Part shown: positions 11,885-53,100 of the stretch, one piece after another | Layout: each line of letters starts with the position of its first letter | Position numbering within the stretch: position 1 is the stretch's first letter | Assembly (NCBI GenBank): GCA_020152595.1 | Contig: JAIGNY010002993.1 | Span: 366,004 to 430,003 of the forward strand | Direction: 5' to 3' | Origin: Chiridota heheva | Taxonomy: Eukaryota; Echinodermata; Holothuroidea; Apodida; Chiridotidae | DNA: 64,000 bases | Translations under genes and position numbers: made by a program | Notes under the pieces: model-generated | What the model was told of the DNA's origin: nothing | Seen by the model: the letters and a program-made list of their open reading frames with translations, nothing else | Database searches by the model: none

Positions 11885-11964
11885 CCAACTGTCCTGCCGT
11901 GACTACTGGGGCTTCCACTGGTTGCTAATACTGATGGGCGAGTGGTACATACCAAGACAAAATC
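11885..11964 (-). CDS. ULK1/2: ULK exon K: LC3-interacting region (DFVLV)
   Basis: This 80-nt exon enters in phase 0 and exits in phase 2. It encodes DFVLVCTTRPSVLATSGSPS followed by SHGRTV. The first five residues match the LIR of ULK1 (DDFVMVP) and ULK2 (DDFVLVP), which binds ATG8/LC3/GABARAP proteins. The acidic residues normally upstream of the LIR come from the end of exon J (EEVEG). The acceptor is AATTTTGCAG-like with a T-rich tract, and the donor is GTTGG|GTAAAA. The alternative donor one base earlier breaks the frame of exon L. Confidence 0.88.
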
Positions 11965-12179
11965 CTGCAAAACAAAAATGCACAAGATTGACCAATTGTT
12001 GATGATTCTTGCCAGGAGCAAAGGTCACTTCCAAGGTGAGACATTATAATGCATATTCATCATCAAACCCGGTAACAATTTACAAAAATAAAATGATTCA
12101 GTTCTTGGACAAAAAAAGAGGCATAAAATTAATGATATTGATTAATACTTTTAAAATATAAAATAAAACTTTTCGCTTT

Positions 12180-15100
12180 TAGGCAATCATTCATGAACTA
12201 CACACAATCACTTATGCCTTCCACTTCTTCATTGTTAAATATGCCCCCTCCACTTGCACCCAATCATTCATAACTACACACAATCACTTACGCCTTCCAC
12301 TTCTTCATTGTCAAATATGCCCCTCCACTTGCACCCAATCATTCATGAACTACACACAATCACTTACACCTTCCACTTCTTCATTGTCAAATATGCCCCC
12401 TCCACTTGCACCCAATCATTCATAACTACACACAATCAATTACCCTTTCCACTTCTTCATTGTCAAATATGCCCCCTCCACTTGCACCCAATCATTCATG
12501 AACTACACACAATCACTTACCCCTTCCACTTCTTCATTGTCAAATATGCCCCCTCCACTTGCACCCAATCATTCATGAACTACACACAATCACTTACCCC
12601 TTCCACTTCTTCATTGTCAAATATGCCCCCTCCACTTGCACCCAATCATTCATGAACTACACACAATCACTTACGCCTTCCACTTCTTCATTGTCAAATA
12701 TGCCCCTCTACTTGCACCTAATCATTCATGAACTACACACAATCACTTACCCCTTCCACTTCTTCATTGTCAAATATGCCCCTCCACTTGCACCCAATCA
12801 TTCATAACTACACACAATCACTTACCCTTCCACTTCTTCATTGTCAAATATGCCCCCCTCCACTTGCACCCAATCATTCATAACTACACACAATCAATTA
12901 CCCTTTCCACTTCTTCATTGTCAAATATGCCCCTCCACTTGCACCCAATCATTCATAACTACACACAATCACTTACCCCTTCCACTTCTTCATTGTCAAA
13001 TATGCCCCCTCCACTTGCACCCAATCATTCATGAACTACACAATCACTTACACCCTCCACTTCTTCATTGTCAAATATGCCCCTCCACTTGCACCCAATC
13101 ATTCATGAACTACACACAATCACTTACCCCTTCCACTTCTTCATTGTCAAATATGCCCCTCCACTTGCACCCAATCATTCATAACTACACACAATCAATT
13201 ACCCTTTCCACTTCTTCATTGTCAAATATGCCCCTCCACTTGCACCCAATCATTCATAACTACACACAATCACTTACCCCTTCCACTTCTTCATTGTCAA
13301 ATATGCCCCCTCCACTTGCACCCAATCATTCATAACTACACACAATCAATTACCCTTTCCACTTCTTCATTGTCAAATATGCCCCTCCACTTGCACCCAA
13401 TCATTCATGAACTACACACAATCACTTACCCCTTCCACTTCTTCATTGTCAAATATGCCCCTCCACTTGCACCCAATCATTCATGAACTACACACAATCA
13501 CTTACACCCTTCCACTTCTTCATTGTCAAATATGCCCTCCACTTGCACCCAATCATTCATGAACTACACACAATCACTTACCCCTTCCACTTCTTCATTG
13601 TCAAATATGCCCCTCCACTTGCACCCAATCATTCATGAACTACACACAATCACTTACGCCTTCCACTTCTTCATTGTCAAATATGCCCCTCCACTTGCAC
13701 CCAATCATTCATAACTACACACAATCACTTACCCCTTCCACTTCTTCATTGTCAAATATGCCCCCTCCACTTGCACCCAATCATTCATAACTACACACAA
13801 TCAATTACCCTTTCCACTTCTTCATTGTCAAATATGCCCCTCCACTTGCACCCAATCATTCATAACTACACACAATCACTTACCCCTTCCACTTCTTCAT
13901 TGTCAAATATGCCCCTCCACTTGCACCCAATCATTCATAACTACACACAATCAATTACCCTTTCCACTTCTTCATTGTCAAATATGCCCCTCCACTTGCA
14001 CCCAATCATTCATGAACTACACACAATCACTTACCCTTCCACTTCTTCATTGTCAAATATGCCCTCCACTTGCACCCAATCATTCATGAACTACACACAA
14101 TCACTTACGCCTTCCACTTCTTCATTGTCAAATATGCCCCTCCACTTGCACCCAATCATTCATGAACTACACACAATCACTTACCCCTTCCACTTCTTCA
14201 TTGTCAAATATGCCCCTCCACTTGCACCCAATCATTCATGAACTACACACAATCACTTACGCCTTCCACTTCTTCATTGTCAAATATGCCCCTCCACTTG
14301 CACCCAATCATTCATAACTACACACAATCACTTACCCTTCCACTTCTTCATTGTCAAATATGCCCCTCCACTTGCACCCAATCATTCATAACTACACACA
14401 ATCAATTACCCTTTCCACTTCTTCATTGTCAAATATGCCCCTCCACTTGCACCCAATCATTCATAACTACACACAATCACTTATGCCTTCCACTTCTTCA
14501 TTGTCAAATATGCCCCCTCCACTTGCACCCAATCATTCATAACTACACACAATCATTACGCCTTTCCACTTCTTCATTGTCAAATATGCCCCTCCACTTG
14601 CACCCAATCATTCATGAACTACACACAATCACTTACCCCTTCCACTTCTTCATTGTCAAATATGCCCCCTCCACTTGCACCCAATCATTCATGAACTACA
14701 CACAATCACTTACGCCTTCCACTTCTTCATTGTTAAATATGCCCCCTCCACTTGCACCCAATCATTCATGAACTACACACAATCACTTACACCCTCCACT
14801 TCTTCATTGTCAAATATGCCCCCTCCACTTGCACCCAATCATTCATGAACTACACACAATCACTTACACCCTCCACTTCTTCATTGTTAAATATGCCCCC
14901 TCCACTTGCACCCAATCATTCATGAACTACACACAATCACTTACGCCTTCCACTTCTTCATTGTCAAATATGCCCCCTCCACTTGCACCCAATCATTCAT
15001 GAACTACACACAATCACTTACGCCTTCCACTTCTTCATTGTCAAATATGCCCCTCCACTTGCACCCAATCATTCATGAACTACACACAATCACTTACACC

Positions 15101-15250
15101 TTCCACTTCTTCATTGTCAAATATGCCCCTCTACTTGCACCCAATCATTTATGAACTACACACAATCACTTACGCCTTCCACTTCTTCGTTGTCAAATAT
15201 GCCCCCTCCACTTGCACCCAATCATTCATGAACTACACACAATCACTTAC
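12180..15250. repeat. 75-76-bp minisatellite built from exon J end plus 5' splice site, about 40 copies
   Basis: On the ULK sense strand each unit contains GCAAGTGGAGGGGGCATATT, GACAATGAAGAAGTGGAAGG, then usually GTAAGTGATTG and about 20 nt more. The first 43 or so nt match the last coding bases of exon J with about one mismatch; the rest is the start of the intron. The array starts exactly at the exon J donor and fills 3.07 kb. Most units keep GTAAGT. Others have GGGTAATTG or the dead ATAAGTG. Variants of 74-77 bp occur. Every open frame across it is a repeat by-product. Confidence 0.96.
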
Positions 15251-15501
15251 GCCTTCCACTTCTTCATGGTCAAATATGCCCCCTCCACTTGCAACCATCT
15301 CCCTCTTTTCAATGATGGTTCTCAGCTTTGGACTTTTGGTTGGGTTGAGTTCAGGTGAGGAGCCAACCTTTGCTTGGGGAGACAAGACATGGACATCCTC
15401 TGGTGATGATATGGGAGCCATGACAGGAGACACAGACATGGGCCCCTCTGGTGAGTCAGAGGAGTAACTAGATGGGCGGCTTGGTACTGGCAATGGAGAT
15501 G
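15251..15501 (-). CDS. ULK1/2: ULK exon J: Ser/Pro-rich linker, upstream of LIR
   Basis: This 251-nt exon enters in phase 1 and exits in phase 0. It begins (T)SPLPVPSRPSSYSSDSPEGP, like the ULK1 post-kinase segment with SPPVPVPSYPSS. It is rich in Ser-Pro pairs, typical of the phosphorylated linker. The tail reads TIIEKREMVASGGGIFDHEE and VEG, so it ends in acidic residues just before the LIR motif of the next exon. The donor is GGC|GTAAGT. The last 43 or so nt, with the donor, are the founder-like copy of the 75-bp minisatellite that starts at once downstream. Reading past the donor reaches an in-frame TAG after six codons. Confidence 0.9.
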
Positions 15502-19722: not shown

Positions 19723-22082
19723 ATATTCCCTAATAAGCGCCCTCTTGAATAAAAGCCCCCTCCCCCCAGCTTTTTTTTTTAAAAATGACATTCATAAAGT
19801 CACACATAAATTGATTGGTAATATCGTAATATCAAATACACAGTGTGATTTAACACTAGGCTTCAACCAAAACTTGTTATAACTAGAACGGTAAATACCG
19901 TCATGGTTCGCATGCCCATGCAAGTTGATACCCATATCATATGACCCACCCAATTATAAAAATGATATCCCACACTTAGTCCAACATGGCATCATATGTC
20001 CCACATGGCATTCCATGTCACACATGGCATTCAACCCCATGTCCCACATGGCATTCCACCACATGTCCCACATGGCATTTCATCCCATGTCCCACATGGC
20101 ATTCCACCCCATGTCTCACATAACATCCCATCCTATTCCTTGTCCCACATAGCATTTCACCATATCTCTCACATGGCATTCCACCATGCCCCACATAGCA
20201 TTCCATCCCATGTCCCACATGGCATCCCATCTTATGTCCCACATTATATCCAACCATATATCCCACATGACATCCCTTCCTATGTCCCACATGGCATCCC
20301 TCCTTGTGTCCCACATGGCATCCCTCCATATGTCCCCCATGGCATCCCACCTTATGTCCCACATCAGTGGCTTCCCATCTGATTTCCCACATGACATCCC
20401 CCCTTATGTCCCATATTGGATCCAACATATGTTCCACATGATATCCCCCCTCATGTCCCAATGACATCCCAATTTATGTCCCACATGGTATCACATCCCA
20501 TGTCCCCATGGCCTCGTCCTCTATGTCCCACATGGCCTCCTACCCTATATCACACATGGCATTCCAACCTATGTCACACTCTGTGTTATTCGTAGCATCC
20601 CACCCAATGTCCCACATGATTGATATCCCACCCCAGTGACCCCATGTCCCACATGACATCCCATCCCAGTGACCCCATGTCCCACATGACAGCCCATGTC
20701 CCACATGGCATTCCACCCTATGTCCCACATGGCATTCTACATATATCCCACACGGCATCCCACCCTATGTCCTACATTATATCCAACCATATGTCCCACA
20801 CATGGCATACCACCCCATGTTCCACATGACATTGCACATTGCATAGACTCTATAAGCAGTATCGTCCTAGCTATCGCATTCCCTGATTGAGCTTACTAAG
20901 TAATGAAAGTCTGTCAGTTCATATAATAACATATGCAAATGACTTGTTGAATAAGAAAATCAAGGCAGAGTCAAATAATCATGCCTGATATAGTCCTTGG
21001 TGCATACCACATGGTATATATTTTATCCTATGTCCCGCATGGCCCCCATTCATATCCCACATGGCATCCCTCCCTATGTCCATATGCAGTCACATCCTCT
21101 CACACTCCCTGATTGAGCATACCAAGTTAAAAAAGTCTTGTCAGTTCATATACTGTAGCAACTTTATGCAAATGAACACAATGATAAAGACAGAGTTTAA
21201 TAATCAGGCCTGATACAGCCGTTGGTGCACAAATATTTTGAAGAACTTTTAAGGGTTTTAAAACTCCAGTGTTATGAGAGACGCTTTAAGATTTCTGAAG
21301 AATATTGAAAAATTATATCATCAATCTGTTTTAAGTGTCTCTGAAAAACTGTAACATTTTGTAGGGAATTTTCAACCTTCCGTGAGGATATCTCAAGAAA
21401 ATTTAACTTTTTCTGAGTAATTCTGAAGAAACTTGAACATTTTCTGAGGAATTCTCAAAAAACTTTTAACATTTCTGATAAAATCTCAGGAAAAACTGTG
21501 GAAGGCCAGACGGATAAAATCGCCATTTCATAGATTCGCATTATGCTTCGCATGTTCACCAAAAACTGAAAAACTGCCAGAAAAATACACAGTCAAAAGA
21601 GTTGAACCTACTATGCACACAAGAACCGACTGAAAAATTACAAGTGAATAAAATGTTTCAACAGAGGTGAACTTCAGTGTAGTTACGAACCGATTTCGGT
21701 CATTTTGAAGAGGCAGGTGATGGCATACTTTCAAAATTTATCAAAGTCGATATGAAGTTCCATTTCTGGCTTACGGCAAAATACACCAGGAGAGGTGGGT
21801 TTAATCGTAATAAGAGTGTACCATTCCTTTACTTCCACACAATGATTCTTTGCATTTTTTCTTGAAAATGATTAATCGTACTGAAGAAATAATTTTTTAT
21901 GGTTTAGAAAGCCAAATTGAAGCATTTCGGCAAAGGAGATCCATACACTTCATATACTAGTTTCGCAACTTTTCTAAATTTTACCCGAGGTTCCTAATAC
22001 ATTCAAAATTTAATCTCAAATGAACATCCCTTCCCTTTTAAAAATGAAATGCTCGTAAGGTGTTTATTAGGGAATATACGGT
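19723..22082. mobile_element. Element with 16-bp inverted termini hosting a minisatellite
   Basis: The left end gtatattccctaataagc is matched by the right end ttattagggaatatac in inverse (16 bp shared). The span is 2.36 kb and contains the 24-bp minisatellite, with no transposase frame recognised. No clear target duplication was found, so the limits are provisional. Confidence 0.5.
19930..20835. repeat. 24-bp degenerate minisatellite, about 35 copies
   Basis: The unit is close to ccatgtcccacatggcattc plus a few bases, with strong copy-to-copy variation. A small outlying block of copies is at 21010-21085, separated by non-repetitive DNA. Confidence 0.9.
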
Positions 22083-22955
22083 AGATTAACAAATTACAAA
22101 TCCTTGTGTTGAAGTAAAAGTGACAAATTTATTATTCGTCAATAAACTGATAAATTCTTGACTCAGGTTTGTTGTGAGAATATCTTAGTGCATTTTTCAG
22201 GGGGTGAAATATATGACCTCTTTCCAAGTTACAGCTGGTAAATTTTACTTGTGCAGATTCTCAGTCAATTTGTGAGAGGTACCTGAACAGGCATAACAAT
22301 GAAATGTAACTGTGAAAGTTTTGCATTGATAAACGAAGATTCCCAGTGAAACAATTTCAACAACAATAGGGTTGTAAATAGGCAAATTAATTCAATATTG
22401 ATTGTAACTAGCCTTCTGTACATATTTCGTTTTTGGCACATAAATCTGATTGTTTTAATGAACGTTGTGCCAAGATGGCTGCATGGTTGAGAATAGTCCA
22501 CCAAAGTTTTCAGTTTGTGAGATAATGGCACCTATGGCTCAATGCTTTAAGGCCTTAGCAAAAAATACTTTTTATAGGTGTATTATTATAATTATATTTC
22601 ATTCTTTCTTCCTTTCTTTTGTTACTCTGTTTACAAGTTTGTGTGTTTTTCACAAAGGGGTATTTCCGAAAATAATACCAGCCTTTGAGTGCCCCTTCAA
22701 CCAAGATAATTATTTACACTTGTATTAACTTGCATACATGTTCTATTGATTGATATAAACTTCATATTCAATACAATTCAAAAGACACCTTGACTATAAA
22801 CAAGTTCTCCCAAACAACAGTGCTCACAAATTTCTGCATTAGTGATCCATATAATGCTCTGATTGGGATGAAGTCTGCACCCAGAATATGAAACTGTTAT
22901 TCAATACTATGCCAAAACATAACAAACAAATGATAGCTTCCAAGTTGTTACAGTG
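22083..22955. other. ULK intron F-G, unclassified part
   Basis: No exon or recognised element. Confidence 0.4.
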
Positions 22956-22959
22956 ATAA

Positions 22960-24120
22960 CTACCATGTGCAGAGGAGATACATGTAAGCACCAATGTACT
23001 CAGAAGATATCTACCATGTACAAAAAGATACTTATCATGCATAGAACAAAGCATTTCGGTGTACACAGGAGATATCTACAATGTACCCTTGAGATACCTA
23101 CCATGTACACAGAAGATACCTACATGTACCACATACACAGGAGATACCTATAGTACCACGTATACAGGATATATCTCCCACATACACAGAAGATACCTAC
23201 TGTACCATGTACACAGGAGATACCCACCAAGTACACAGGAGATATCCACCATGTACACAGGAGATACCCACTGTGTACACGGGAGATACCTACAATTGTA
23301 CACAGCAGATACCTACCATGTACACAGCAGATACCTACCATGTACACAGCAGATACCTACCATGTACACAGCAGATACCTACCATGTACAAAGCAGATAC
23401 CTACCATGTACACAGCAGATACCTACTATGTACAAAGCAGATACCTACCATGTGCACAGCAGATATCTACCATGTACACAGGAGATACCTACCATGTACA
23501 CAGGAGATACCTACCACTACACAGGAGATACTTACCACATACACAGGAGATACCTACCATGTACACAGAAGATATCTATTGTGTACACAGGAGATACTAC
23601 TATGTACACAGGAGATACCTTCCATGTACACAGAAGACATACATACCATGTACACAGGAGATATATCTACCATGCACACCAGAGATACACCTACCATGTA
23701 CACAGGGGATATACCAGAGATACCTACCAGGTACACAGGAGATACCTACTGTGTACACCGGAGATGCCTACCACATACACAGGAGATACTTACCACATAC
23801 CATGTACACAGGAGATACCTTCCATGTACACAGGAGAAATCTACTATATACACAGGAGATACTTATCATGTACACAGGAGACTGTACCTACCATGTACAC
23901 AGGAGATAGTTATCATGAAAACAGGAAATACCTACCATGTACACAGGAGATCAATGTTCTTCAAATCTATAAAGGGGAGATACCTACCATGTGCAGAAAA
24001 CATATGTGTATTTTTCATGTAGAGATGGGGTACTTACTATGCATAGAATAGATACATGCACCTTACAATGTACAGAGAGGATATACATGTACATAGTAGA
24101 TAGGATGCACTATATATACA
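22960..24120. repeat. 22-bp minisatellite built from exon F end plus 5' splice site, roughly 45 copies
   Basis: The sense-strand unit is GTATCTCCTGTGTACATGGTAG. Exon F ends GATCTCCTCTGTACATG and its intron begins GTATG, so unit and exon boundary agree at 19 of 20 aligned positions (ATCTCCT[C/G]TGTACATGGTA). Degenerate copies continue to within a few bases of the exon. Units vary (acagca, acagga, acaaag) in blocks, for example 23300-23470 has cagcag-type units. Confidence 0.93.
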
Positions 24121-24123
24121 TAC

Positions 24124-24197
24124 CATGTACAGAGGAGATCCACACAAAGTAGCAGCCATGTTGTCTTCTTCCAAGAATCTTGCAAATCCAAAATCAG
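24124..24197 (-). CDS. ULK1/2: ULK exon F: DFG motif and activation segment
   Basis: This 74-nt exon enters in phase 1 and exits in phase 0. It encodes (A)[18 protein letters not shown] followed by GSPLYM. DFG is intact (Asp130). The Thr in AATLCGSP matches the activation-loop Thr180 of ULK1, whose phosphorylation is needed for activity. The acceptor is TTTTAG and the donor ATG|GTATGT. The final codons and the donor are almost identical to the unit of the 22-bp minisatellite that fills the following 1.1 kb of intron. Confidence 0.95.
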
Positions 24198-24389
24198 CTA
24201 AAATGATTCAATCAAACATAACAGTTATGACATACAATAAATCCATAATGTGAAACACTCATTAAAATATGTTATGCATAGCAATAATTAGGCACATGTT
24301 ATCTTCTTTGTACAAAGAAAGAATGGTATGCTGTAAACTACTGTCCTATCAACACCAAAACTCATATACTCATGGACAAAACATCTTAC

Positions 24390-25812
24390 TGGTTTGGTTT
24401 GTTGATGTTTAATGGCACCACGACAGTCAGAGTCAAATGTGCCAAGAGGATGTTAATAAATAATGGTGTAAGAATAAGGATAGTGAGGAGATGAAAGTTT
24501 GTGAGGGAGAAAAAGGGGGAAAGCTGAATGTGGGAGAAAAAGTTAGGTGAAAAGAAAGGGGTGTGTAAGGTTAGGTGTAGAAGGGGAGGAGGGGAGGAGA
24601 TTATATATGGTGGAAGAGGTTGTTGTTGCAGAGGAAGTTGATGATGTTTGAGGAAGAATTATTTTCCAATAGGTCCGAGATTGAGGAGAGAAGAGATCTG
24701 GAGTTCTGGTATAGGAGACAGGCTAAGAAAATATGCTTAATGGAGATATCGATGGGGCAGAGAGGGGCAGGAGGGCTGGAAAAGAGATGGGAGTGAGTAA
24801 GAGAGGAGTGGCCAAGGCGAATGCGGGTGACAACGATGTCTTCCCTGCAGTTGCAACTATGCAGAGGGGTGTTGGTATTGACTTGATGGTGTGAAGTTTA
24901 TTACTGGTTTCATAATTCCATGAACTTTGCCAGGTTTTATTGATGTAGTTGGATGGAAATGGAGAGACGGAGGTCTGAATGTAGCATAGGAAAAGGAGAG
25001 ATGTTATTTGACAGAGCTTTGATGGTGGCTCTGTCGGCTCTCTCGTTGCCAGGGATGCCGACGTGGCTGGGAATCCAGAAAAAAAAAATTCCTAGGAAGG
25101 AAAGAGTGTAGAGTTTGTTGGGGATTGTAGAATAAGAGGGTTGGGCCAGAGCATGATAAGGATGCCAGTGAGGACGCATTTAGAGTCAGATAAGATGATG
25201 AAATGGGGGGAGGGGGGGCGGATAGAGAGTTCTATGAACTTAAGGCTAGGAGGATGGCCTTCGCCTCGGCAAAGTAGATAGAGGTGCCCAGGGGTAACCT
25301 TGAGCAGAGTGTGAGGCCAGGACAGGCTGCAGCAGCTGCAGAGGAGCCTTCCCGTGTGGAGCCGTCGGTGAAGAGGAAGGAGTAGTCATGGAAATGTCTA
25401 CTGAGTTGACAGTATTTGGAGTGGGAGAAGGCTTGGGTTGTTGAGAGCGTTCGTGAAGGAAGAAAGACCAAGGTAAATCTTGGGGGGTAAATAGTCCAGG
25501 TGGGTGTAGGTGGGATGGTGTCTGGCAATCGAGAAAACGTTGATGTTGACTTTGGAGAAGTGGGAGTGCATCCGGATTCCGAAAGGTGGGGGGATGAGTT
25601 TGTTGAGATTGAAGAGGTTGGTGAAGGAGGGAGAGTGGATGGAGTGGAAGCAAGGCTTTCTTGGATCGGTGAGGATACGGAAAGCAAAAGAGAGGCCGGC
25701 CTTCGTACACCGGAGGTCGAAGGGGAGTTTGTTGGTTTCGACGTGGAGACTGGTGATAGGGGAGGTGTAAGTGGCACCAAGGCAAAGCCATAGGGCAGTG
25801 TTCCCATTGACC
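24390..25812 (-). pseudogene. 5'-truncated LINE with RNase H domain
   Basis: On the minus strand: VNGNTALWLCLGATYTSPIT (post-RT region), then in another frame FLFTDGSTREGSSAAAAACP and FAEAKAILLAL (RNase H Asp and Glu), then FFFWIPSHVGIPGNERADRA (last RNase H Asp), then a TRIRLGHSSLTHSHLFS-type tail, and a 3' UTR ending with a caaa-type tail near 24390. Frames change at least twice, so it is inactive. RNase H placed after RT suggests an I/Tad/LOA-like clade. It sits in ULK intron E-F in sense orientation. Confidence 0.85.
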
Positions 25813-26357
25813 TCTAATGACCTCAGTGACATCTTACTGACCCAATGAGAACGTTTCACCTTACTTGCTAGTTTTAACATGAAAACCATACTGGTGTCAG
25901 GGAGAAATAAAAAAGATTGCATAGAAGGATCATGTGAAGGATGCCACCTACAACATCAAGCCTGCAAGGTGTGTCCCCCACTACAGGTGCCTTTCCAAAT
26001 AAAATATATATATCATTTTTCATCAGATGTGGTGCATTCTGGAAAACAACAACAAGCAGTTTTTTGTCCAAAATTTTCCCTAAAATTGGTAGACCTTTCT
26101 CTACCCATTTCAAAAGCTTTGAGGACGGCGGTGACCAAGGAATATATGGTGAACCAGGGCTTCCTAGAACCAATGGGTATCTTAAGCAAACAGGCCCCTT
26201 TGATACGCCAAAGTAGAGTACACAAACTGTAGATGCTATTGGTCTTTTCAAAGCACATCCTTTTTCTTACATTTTTTAGGACCCCTACGATCCTGGGACC
26301 GGGGGAAATGCACATTCTGAACCCAATTGTCAGCAGTACTGGTTGGTGAACCCTTAC
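25813..26357. other. ULK intron E-F next to exon E
   Basis: Overlapping open frames occur on both strands, but none gives a recognised domain. Possibly an unclassified repeat. Confidence 0.35.
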
Positions 26358-46409: not shown

Positions 46410-46842
46410 GGAAGTGGTGCTGAAATAGCAATAAGGGAATGGTGCTGAAATAGCAATAAGGGAATGGTGCTGAAATAGCAATAAGGGAATGGTGCTGAAA
46501 TAGTAATAAGGGAGTGGTGCTGAAATAGCTATTGGGGAATGGTGCTGAAATAGCAATAAGGGAACGGTGCTGAAATAGCAATAAGGGAACGGTGCTGAAA
46601 TAGCATTCAGGGAATGGTGCTGAAATAGCAATAAGGGAATGGTGCTGAAATAGCAATAAAGGAATGGTGCTGAAATAGCAATAAGGGAATGGTGCTGAAA
46701 TAGCAAAAAGGGACTGATACTGAAATAGCAATAAGGGAGTGATGCTAAAATAGCCATAAAGGAATGGTGCTGAAATAGCAATAAGGGAATAGTGTTGAAA
46801 TAGCAATAAGGGAGTGGTGCTGAAATAGCAATAAGGAAAACA
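46410..46842. repeat. 25-bp minisatellite, about 17 copies, acceptor-like on sense strand
   Basis: The unit is ggtgctgaaatagcaataag plus ggaat. On the ULK strand each reads CTTATTGCTATTTCAG then CACCATTCC, which resembles a 3' splice site. Most copies keep TTTCAG; a few are altered. Open frames on the minus strand are by-products. Confidence 0.95.
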
Positions 46843-50954: not shown

Positions 50955-53100
50955 ATCAATTTCATTATCAGATGTGGGTTTACCACACAGCTTGCAGATT
51001 TGCATTAGTTTCTATATAATGCCAATGCAGAAATTGTCATTTCTAATCCACTAATAATAGAACTAAAATTTACAGTAAGTATTTTTAATTCAATTGTCTT
51101 TAGATAATATCATTATCAGATGTGGGTTTACCACACAGCTTGCAGATTTGCATTAGTTCCTATATATTGCCAATGCAGAAATTGTCATTTCTGATCCACT
51201 AAAAATAGAACAAAAATTTACAATAAGTATTCAAATGTCTTTAGATAATTCATTATCAGATGTGGGTTTACCACACAGCTTGCAGATTTGCATTAGTTTC
51301 TATATATTGCCAATGCAGAAATTGTCATTTCTGATCCACTAAAAATAGAACCAAAATTTACAATAAGTATTCAAATGTCTTTAGATAATTCATTATCAGA
51401 TGTGGGTTTACCACACAGCTTGCAGATTTGCATTAGTTTCTATATATTGCCAATGAAGAAATTGTCATTTCTGATCCACTAAAAATATAACAAAAATTTT
51501 CAATTAAGCATTTTTAATTCAATTGTCTTTAGATAATTTCATTATCAGATGTGGGTTTATCAGATGTGGGTTTACCACACAGCTTGCAGATTTGCATTAG
51601 TTTCTATTTATCGCCAATGCAGAAATTGTCATTTCTGATCCAATGAAAATATAACAAAATTTTTCGAATAAGTGTTTTTAATTCAACTGTCTTTAGATAA
51701 TTTCATTATTAGATGTGGGTTTACCACACAGCTTTAAGATTTGCATTAGTTTCTATATATTGCCAATAAAGAAATTGTCATTTCTGATCCACTAAAAATA
51801 GAACAAAAATTTTCAATTAAGTATTTCTAACTAAATTGTCTTTAGATAATTTCATTATCAGATGTGGGTTTACCACACAGCTTGCAGATTTGCTTTAGTT
51901 TCTATATATTGCCAATGCAGAAATTGTCATTTCTGATCCACTAAAAATAGAACAAAAATTTTCAATTAAGTATTTCTAATTCAATTGTCTTTAGATAATT
52001 TCATTATCAGATGTGGGTTTATCAGATGTGAGTTTACCACACAGCTTGCAGATTTGCATTAGTTTCTATATATTGTCAATGAAGAAATTGTCATATCTGA
52101 TCCACTGAAAATATAACCAAAATTTTCAATTAAGTATTTTTAATTCAATTGTCTTTAAATAATTTCATTACCACACAGCTTGCAGATTTGCATTAGTTTC
52201 TATATATTGCCAATGCAGAAATTGTCATTTCTGATCCACTAAAAATATAACAAAATTTTCAATTAAGTATTTTTAATTCAATTGTCTTTAGATAATTTCA
52301 TTATCAGATGTGGGTTTACCACACAGCTTGCAGATTTGCATTAGTTCCTATATATATCCAATGAAGAAATTGTCATTTCTGATCCACTAAAAATATAACC
52401 AAAATTTTTAATTAAGTATTTTTAATTCAATTGTCTTTAGATAATTTCATTATCAGATGTGGGTTTACCACACAGCTTGCAGATTTGCATTAGTTTCTAC
52501 ATATTGCCAATGCAGAAATTGTCATTTCTGATCCACTAAAAATGTAACCAAAATTTTCAATGAAGTATTTTTAATTCAATTGTCTTTAGATAATTTTATT
52601 ATCAGATGTGGGTTTACCACACAGCTTGCAGATTTGCATTATTTTCTATATATTGCCAATGTAGAAATTGTCATTTCTGATCCACTAAAAATAGAACCAA
52701 AATTCACAATAAGTATTTTGTATTCAATTGTCTTTAGATAATTTCATTATCAGATGTGGGTTTACCACACAACTTGCAGATTGGCATTAGTCTCTATACG
52801 TTGACAATGAAGAAATGAATGTTCTGACCTACTACAAATATGAACAAAACTTCAGAATTATCTTAAATTTAAAGTTTTTAAATAGTTTTATTATCAGATG
52901 TGGTTAATATTCCACACAGCTTGCAGATTTACTTATATTGACATTAAAGAAATGAACTTCTAATCTACTACAAATATGTACCAAAATTCAGATCATATAT
53001 CTTAAATTGAAGTTTCTTTTAATAATTTCATTATCAGGTGTGGTTTACATATATGACACACAGCTTTGAGACTTGCATTAGTCTCCATATATTGACATTA
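50955..53100. repeat. Satellite-like array, unit about 125-160 bp, 15 copies
   Basis: Each copy has cattatcagatgtgggttta, ccacacagcttgcagatttg, cattagtttctatatattgc, agaaattgtcatttctgatc and a variable AT-rich linker. Copies near 52900-53100 are the most diverged; the centre is homogeneous. Some units carry an extra duplication of tcagatgtgggtttat. Confidence 0.95.

Follow-up and report, generated by a model that had tools for sequence, protein, structure and literature searches.

Two coding exons of a ULK1/2 (Atg1) gene are each followed by a minisatellite whose units repeat the end of the exon, its 5′ splice site and the adjoining intron. Most of the gene lies on the minus strand of the 64,000-nucleotide stretch of DNA analysed here (the window), and it carries a young array at exon J and an old one at exon G (Table 1). 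We put the probability at about three in four that both are near-neutral minisatellites of the "mirage" type, which would have arisen by duplication of an exon-intron boundary and grown inside the intron, with the first donor still in use. In favour of this reading we counted an exon that is older than its array, single-locus matches among those listed, unconserved donors, recurrence of identical units at even lags, a sampled genome rich in minisatellites, and precedents with normal splicing. Counted against it were the two exon-seeded arrays in one gene, which exceed a random-seeding estimate, and the seven decoy donors nearest to exon J, which are never stronger than the true one.

Gene identity and exon structure

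The conceptual translation of the kinase exons contains a ULK-type kinase domain, and its best matches were the solved ULK2 (PDB 6qat, E 1.9e-99) and ULK1 (E 7e-98). A search for relatives with residues 185-400 (padded) gave 13 proteins with an E of 1 or below, P0121 ranking first, followed by P0122 of Apostichopus (Stichopus) japonicus; with residues 205-385 alone, none of 1134 candidates passed a threshold of E 0.001. In a tree built from eight sequences, the protein of the window clustered with the holothurian ULKs P0121 and P0122 with support 1.0, by which the gene is judged to come from a holothurian or a near relative. An earlier reading made from the letters of the window (hereafter the sequence-only reading) had named the gene ULK, and the kinase match and the holothurian grouping confirm it. 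The C-terminal domain was located outside the window, where C2929:351510-362535 of the same 1.1-Gb assembly carries, in order, the exons that match residues 596-929 of P0121.

Exon J is in phase with the preceding exon (TCATCAA/GTGAGT ... TTTTTAG/CATCTCC). It ends with GGAAGGC/GTAAGT in phase 0 and would be joined to exon K at TTTTGCAG/GATTTTGTC, which gives a protein reading ...EEVEG-DFVLV..., as compared with ...SVED-DFVLV... in the orthologues. Judged by acceptor and donor phases that fit the neighbouring exons, by the match to P0121 and by the aligned coding tail, exon J is real. The DFVLV motif is common to the aligned holothurian and asteroid sequences. It opens exon K and is a putative LIR, a motif that the sequence-only reading had placed in this exon.

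Table 1. Features of the ULK gene and its two exon-seeded arrays (window coordinates)
Feature	Coordinates	Strand	Description	Basis
Exon J	15251..15501	-	251 nt, ends GGC/GTAAGT in phase 0	splice phases, tblastn to P0121 (E 1.4e-13), alignment
Probable true 5′ splice site of intron J	15245..15250	-	GTAAGT	phase and orthologues (EVEG joined to DFVLV)
Intron J	11965..15250	-	3286 nt, 93% array (3067 nt by coordinates)	
Exonic part of unit 1	15251..15293	-	43 nt, codes ASGGGIFDHEEVEG	unit split, holothurian counterparts
Intronic part of the minisatellite	12184..15250	-	rest of unit 1 and 40 units of ~76 bp, 30/40 with GTAAGT	
Exon K	11885..11964	-	opens with DFVLV, LIR-like	
Exon G	24124..24197	-	ends GSPLYM/GTATGT (ATG/GTATGT); kinase motif GSPLYM	
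Exon G-seeded array	22961..24139	-	degenerate 22-bp units, ~53; core 22994-23951	wraparound alignment

The exon J array

TRF reported a single array (12184-15297) with a period of 76, 41.0 copies and 95% matches; the 151-bp dimer scored slightly higher. The array was split into 41 near-identical units of ~76 bp (12184-15293) at a spacing of 74-77 nt. Unit 1 (15293-15217, 77 nt) spans the exon-intron border, as placed by phase and homology: 43 nt are exonic and 34 nt, GTAAGT included, are intronic. The other 40 units follow directly, and all 40 copies of the exon J end detected by blastn lie within the intronic array. The sequence-only reading had described about 40 sense, downstream repeats of the exon tail, its GTAAGT donor and the adjoining intron, and the unit split agrees with it. 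The interval that it gave, 12180..15501, includes exon J as well. GTAAGT is present in 31 of the 41 units, the true donor included. The ten downstream copies without it have GTAATT (7), ATAAGT (2) or GTAATGAT (1). The array is, as proposed, a run of decoy 5′ splice sites.

The ordered units fall into 26 variants with a block structure. Identical units recur at even lags (4/38 at lag 2, 0/37 at lag 3 and 6/34 at lag 6); the array therefore probably grew partly by two-unit blocks, and the pattern suggests turnover. A search of the 1.1-Gb assembly with a 391-base query of the exon end and array placed all 11 matches listed at the ULK locus; as this search skips very common words, it does not by itself prove that the J array is absent elsewhere.

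The exonic part of the unit in exon J has a run of 5 G, and 24 of units 2-40 have fewer G (window 12184-15293). Gene conversion into exon J could therefore shift its frame, and the adjacent array holds variants, some frameshifting (in G-run length) and some altering the donor, that could be carried in this way into the coding end. A non-coding RNA of a known family was dropped as a candidate, since an Rfam search of the whole window gave 0 matches at the gathering threshold.

A second, older array at exon G

The end of exon G (last 16 nt and 8 nt of intron) is identical at 22/24 positions to the downstream 22-bp unit. In the window, 24-mers on both strands outside 22940-24110 reached at least 19/24 only at the exon G end; the best score elsewhere was 18. 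When 15 exons with 40-nt flanks were compared with the window by blastn, 21 matches of exon G were obtained, all on the minus strand within 22956-23952. One match of exon D and two of exon I2 outside themselves were judged to be due to chance.

The wraparound alignment starts at 24151, inside exon G, and continues into the array with a mean column consensus of 86%. The stretch between the exon and the array core (24115-23990) has 61% unit identity and scored 52, whereas the scores of 200 shuffles did not exceed 24; decayed units therefore connect exon G to the core. This array is an older relative of the exon J case, its units likewise span the exon-intron boundary, and it contains 33 donor-like sites.

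On both strands, 12 array consensi (the 150-bp array at 50958-52930 excepted) were compared with 14 exons and their 60-nt flanks (exon M2 excepted), with 100 base shuffles each. This yielded no further exon as a source, as only J and G stood clear. Three opposite-strand matches with z of 4.1-4.2 were judged to be chance. A 25-bp, 17-copy array in a ULK intron (window 46410-46836) has TTGCTATTTCAG in its sense unit and presents a series of acceptor-like sites; none of the 14 exons compared matched it. In the ULK intron at 24389-26000 (minus strand), open frames resemble a fragmentary retroelement with an RNase H-like stretch.

Conservation and strength of the decoy donors

Selection on the decoys would predict that their donors are conserved. 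In units 1-40, GTAAGT is intact in 31 (true donor included), as compared with a median of 38/40 for all hexamers of the unit, and 15 of the 76 have a lower count. Seven of the ten columns of the donor window are variable, a level reached by 4 of 79 windows. In the exon G array, the mean consensus of the donor columns is 84% versus 86% in the remaining columns. In neither the young nor the old array, therefore, does conservation of the donors exceed that of the remaining unit. The sequence-only reading had looked to a unit alignment for donor conservation above chance and had proposed that array length could tune the splicing of exon J to exon K; the alignment speaks against the former, and the latter is left unsupported, as the decoys are kept no better than the rest of the unit in either array.

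Pairing with U1 was scored as the energy of an RNA duplex with the U1 5′ end, which is not the output of a trained splice model. By this score, the true donor (-7.2 kcal/mol) is surpassed by 15 of the 40 J decoys, equalled by 15 and not reached by 10. The first seven decoys equal the true donor, and the first stronger one is in unit 9. That the seven nearest are never stronger has a probability of 0.026 if units are independent, which they are not; it could be a hint of selection near the exon. By unit spacings, the donor of unit 9 is 614 nt beyond the true donor, and its use would give an exon of ~865 nt.

Predicted consequences of decoy use

Counted from the true donor, codon six is an in-frame TAG (intron +16 to +18). 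When exon J was read through each of 37 scored decoys into exon K, the same truncated end, ...EVEGVSDCV, was obtained in 37 cases out of 37, and the stop lay at least 59 nt upstream of the new junction. The predicted premature stop of the sequence-only reading is thereby upheld for every decoy scored. A stop upstream of a junction by more than the usual 50-55 nt marks an RNA for decay, and by this rule the decoy-spliced RNAs would be decay targets. Since the same stop follows from every scored decoy, the decoys could lower output or yield one truncated kinase, and would not offer a choice of full-length proteins. Distinct in-frame, full-length isoforms, as expected of an IFI6-type functional donor array, were predicted for none of the 37, all of which stop after VSDCV.

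Intron J was also scanned for AG preceded by at least 70% pyrimidines in 20 nt, and none was found inside the array. Cryptic exons within the array were rejected, as both qualifying AGs lie outside it (intron +3147 and the exon K acceptor). The decoys are therefore hardly usable except as alternative donors of exon J.

The main alternative is that the array acts as a splicing rheostat, in which decoys compete with the true donor and a longer array leaves less ULK, through nonsense-mediated decay or a truncated kinase without the LIR and the C-terminal domain. We consider it unlikely. The 30 decoys that pair with U1 as well as or better than the true donor agree with it, as does the shared stop at a distance suited to decay, and in human IFI6 repeat units further downstream are reported to serve as donors (PMC4526556). 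The decoys are, however, unconserved in both arrays, all those scored lead to one identical truncated protein, the nearest stronger decoy is in unit 9 and would lengthen exon J to ~865 nt, and the amphioxus counterparts are reported as normally spliced (PMC3087553 and PMC3902484). A related and unlikely proposal is that of a natural splice-site competition array, in which unproductive splicing would occur at a low, heritable level fixed by array length, and with it the ULK dose, varying among individuals and perhaps tissues. It builds on the 30 tandem GTAAGT donors, 15 of which exceed the true donor in U1 pairing. If true, such an array would set the dose of a central autophagy kinase.

Arrays at other exon edges

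The same genome was surveyed in 40 regions (20 of up to 10 kb and 20 of 2 kb) with 42 exon matches, hand-picked, mostly as short matches, from 134 kinase matches listed. An array was found at 1 of 84 kinase-exon edges outside ULK, the edges being those of profile matches and not always exon ends; 67 of 480 random non-coding 60-mers near the surveyed exons recur in tandem. In the first 20 regions, 193 kb in total, 32 arrays were counted. Non-coding hits outside the coding match were obtained in L025 (four) and L056 (15); L020 holds 750 masked bases. In L030, two kinase matches each had one hit overlapping coding sequence, but these were the two matches hitting each other (65% identity) and no array. 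The sampled genome is thus rich in minisatellites, and its exon edges do not look like hotspots.

The single positive edge is at L022:4130-4897, where eight 96-bp units just upstream of a kinase exon that looks PKN-like repeat the intron end ...CTTCAAACACACAG with its acceptor AG, together with the exon's first few bases. This array is an acceptor-side counterpart of the boundary arrays. Closely similar 24-bp units (such as GATGCCATGTGGGACATAGGGTGG) were observed in a ULK intron (window 20013-20837) and beside two other kinase exons (L021:1821-4070 and L049:1-368); this minisatellite family is therefore dispersed in the genome.

For ULK, random seeding gave an expectation of 0.07 exon-seeded arrays and a P of 0.0018 for two or more, an estimate that is post hoc, ULK being the gene under study, and that used 10 hand-picked arrays, one of them outside the simulated span, and 15 donors. 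By this estimate the two arrays look unusual, which the wider survey does not bear out. That in this lineage minisatellites arise at splice donors as mutational hotspots, for example via G-rich transcripts or R-loops, seems improbable to us: arrays were seeded at 2 of the window's 15 ULK donors and one other exon has an acceptor-side array, but the ULK cases are an ascertained sample, and the survey found arrays at a smaller share of kinase-exon edges than of random non-coding 60-mers.

Origin and growth of the arrays

The repeated tail ASGGGIFDHEEVEG is matched in the P0121 alignment by ASGSGMFESVED, directly before the common DFVLV. P0122 has a shorter, gapped counterpart, SGMCETVED, in the same position. 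A coding tail recognisable in the orthologues argues that the exon predates the array, and it is well supported by this comparison that the exon J tail seeded the array; the exonic origin of the unit had been proposed earlier and stands. The reverse order, with the exon J end derived from the array, is very improbable: the exon copy and the units do differ little, with one substitution seen in the exon unit and in no other, but the holothurian orthologues have the tail (P0122 without part of it), and the exon G end encodes the conserved kinase motif GSPLYM. There is scarcely any chance that misassembly, frequent in tandem arrays, inflated or invented an array known here from the assembly, given its 41 ordered units, 26 variants and block structure and the second array in another intron.

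The mirage-type origin that we favour would have begun with a short tandem duplication across the exon-intron border, of about 76 bp at J and 22 bp at G. Growth would then have taken place within the intron by slippage or unequal exchange, at J partly in two-unit blocks. Because the upstream-most donor would still end the exon, the coding sequence would be unchanged and the copies tolerated. The spliceosome most likely stays with the first donor through exon definition, and the decoys would ride along almost neutrally, adding slightly to the risk that mis-splicing brings in a premature stop.

Comparison with known systems

The minisatellite of IFI6/G1P3 (6-16) has a unit of about 12 nt. As reportedly described by Turri in 1995, it supplies multiple splice donors. 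The ULK J array is likewise a minisatellite with multiple potential donors. Downstream repeat units of IFI6 are reported to be in use as donors that give different isoforms (PMC4526556), whereas any scored downstream ULK donor would bring in the in-frame TAG. Internal tandem repeats located at exon-intron boundaries in human genes can change splicing or give rise to new introns; according to PMC2812944 they are short, with an average of 4 units of 30 bp, and are often exon-retained or intron-forming. The ULK J array, in contrast, is intronic past the first donor.

The closest relatives are the amphioxus mirages, minisatellite-like tandem duplications of exon-intron boundaries with units of 10-160 bp, many of them with splice signals. 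According to PMC3087553, they are unstable in length and apparently have no effect on regular splicing. Their units, of 10-72 bp in Adh3 and 150-160 bp in the globins BflGb6 and BflGb9, carry AG/GT signals and occur at both 5′ and 3′ boundaries (PMC3087553 and PMC3902484), and TnC and PGBD5 were added as mirage genes in PMC3902484. The two haplotypes of BflGb6 have 6 and 3 units. An echinoderm case of a boundary minisatellite was not found among the matches listed in the open-licence literature, as judged by title or start of abstract.

The ULK arrays resemble the mirages in being minisatellites that span an exon-intron boundary with units that bear splice signals. They differ in belonging to an echinoderm and not a cephalochordate, in the 41 units of the J array as against 6 and 3, and in the presence of two arrays of different ages in one gene. 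Dozens of near-identical donors, many of them stronger by U1 pairing, follow a coding exon, and the locus is therefore a ready natural test of whether position, exon length or strength decides the choice of the first donor. The ULK arrays thus belong to a known phenomenon, that of the amphioxus mirages, and extend it to an echinoderm, with a very long example in a conserved gene.
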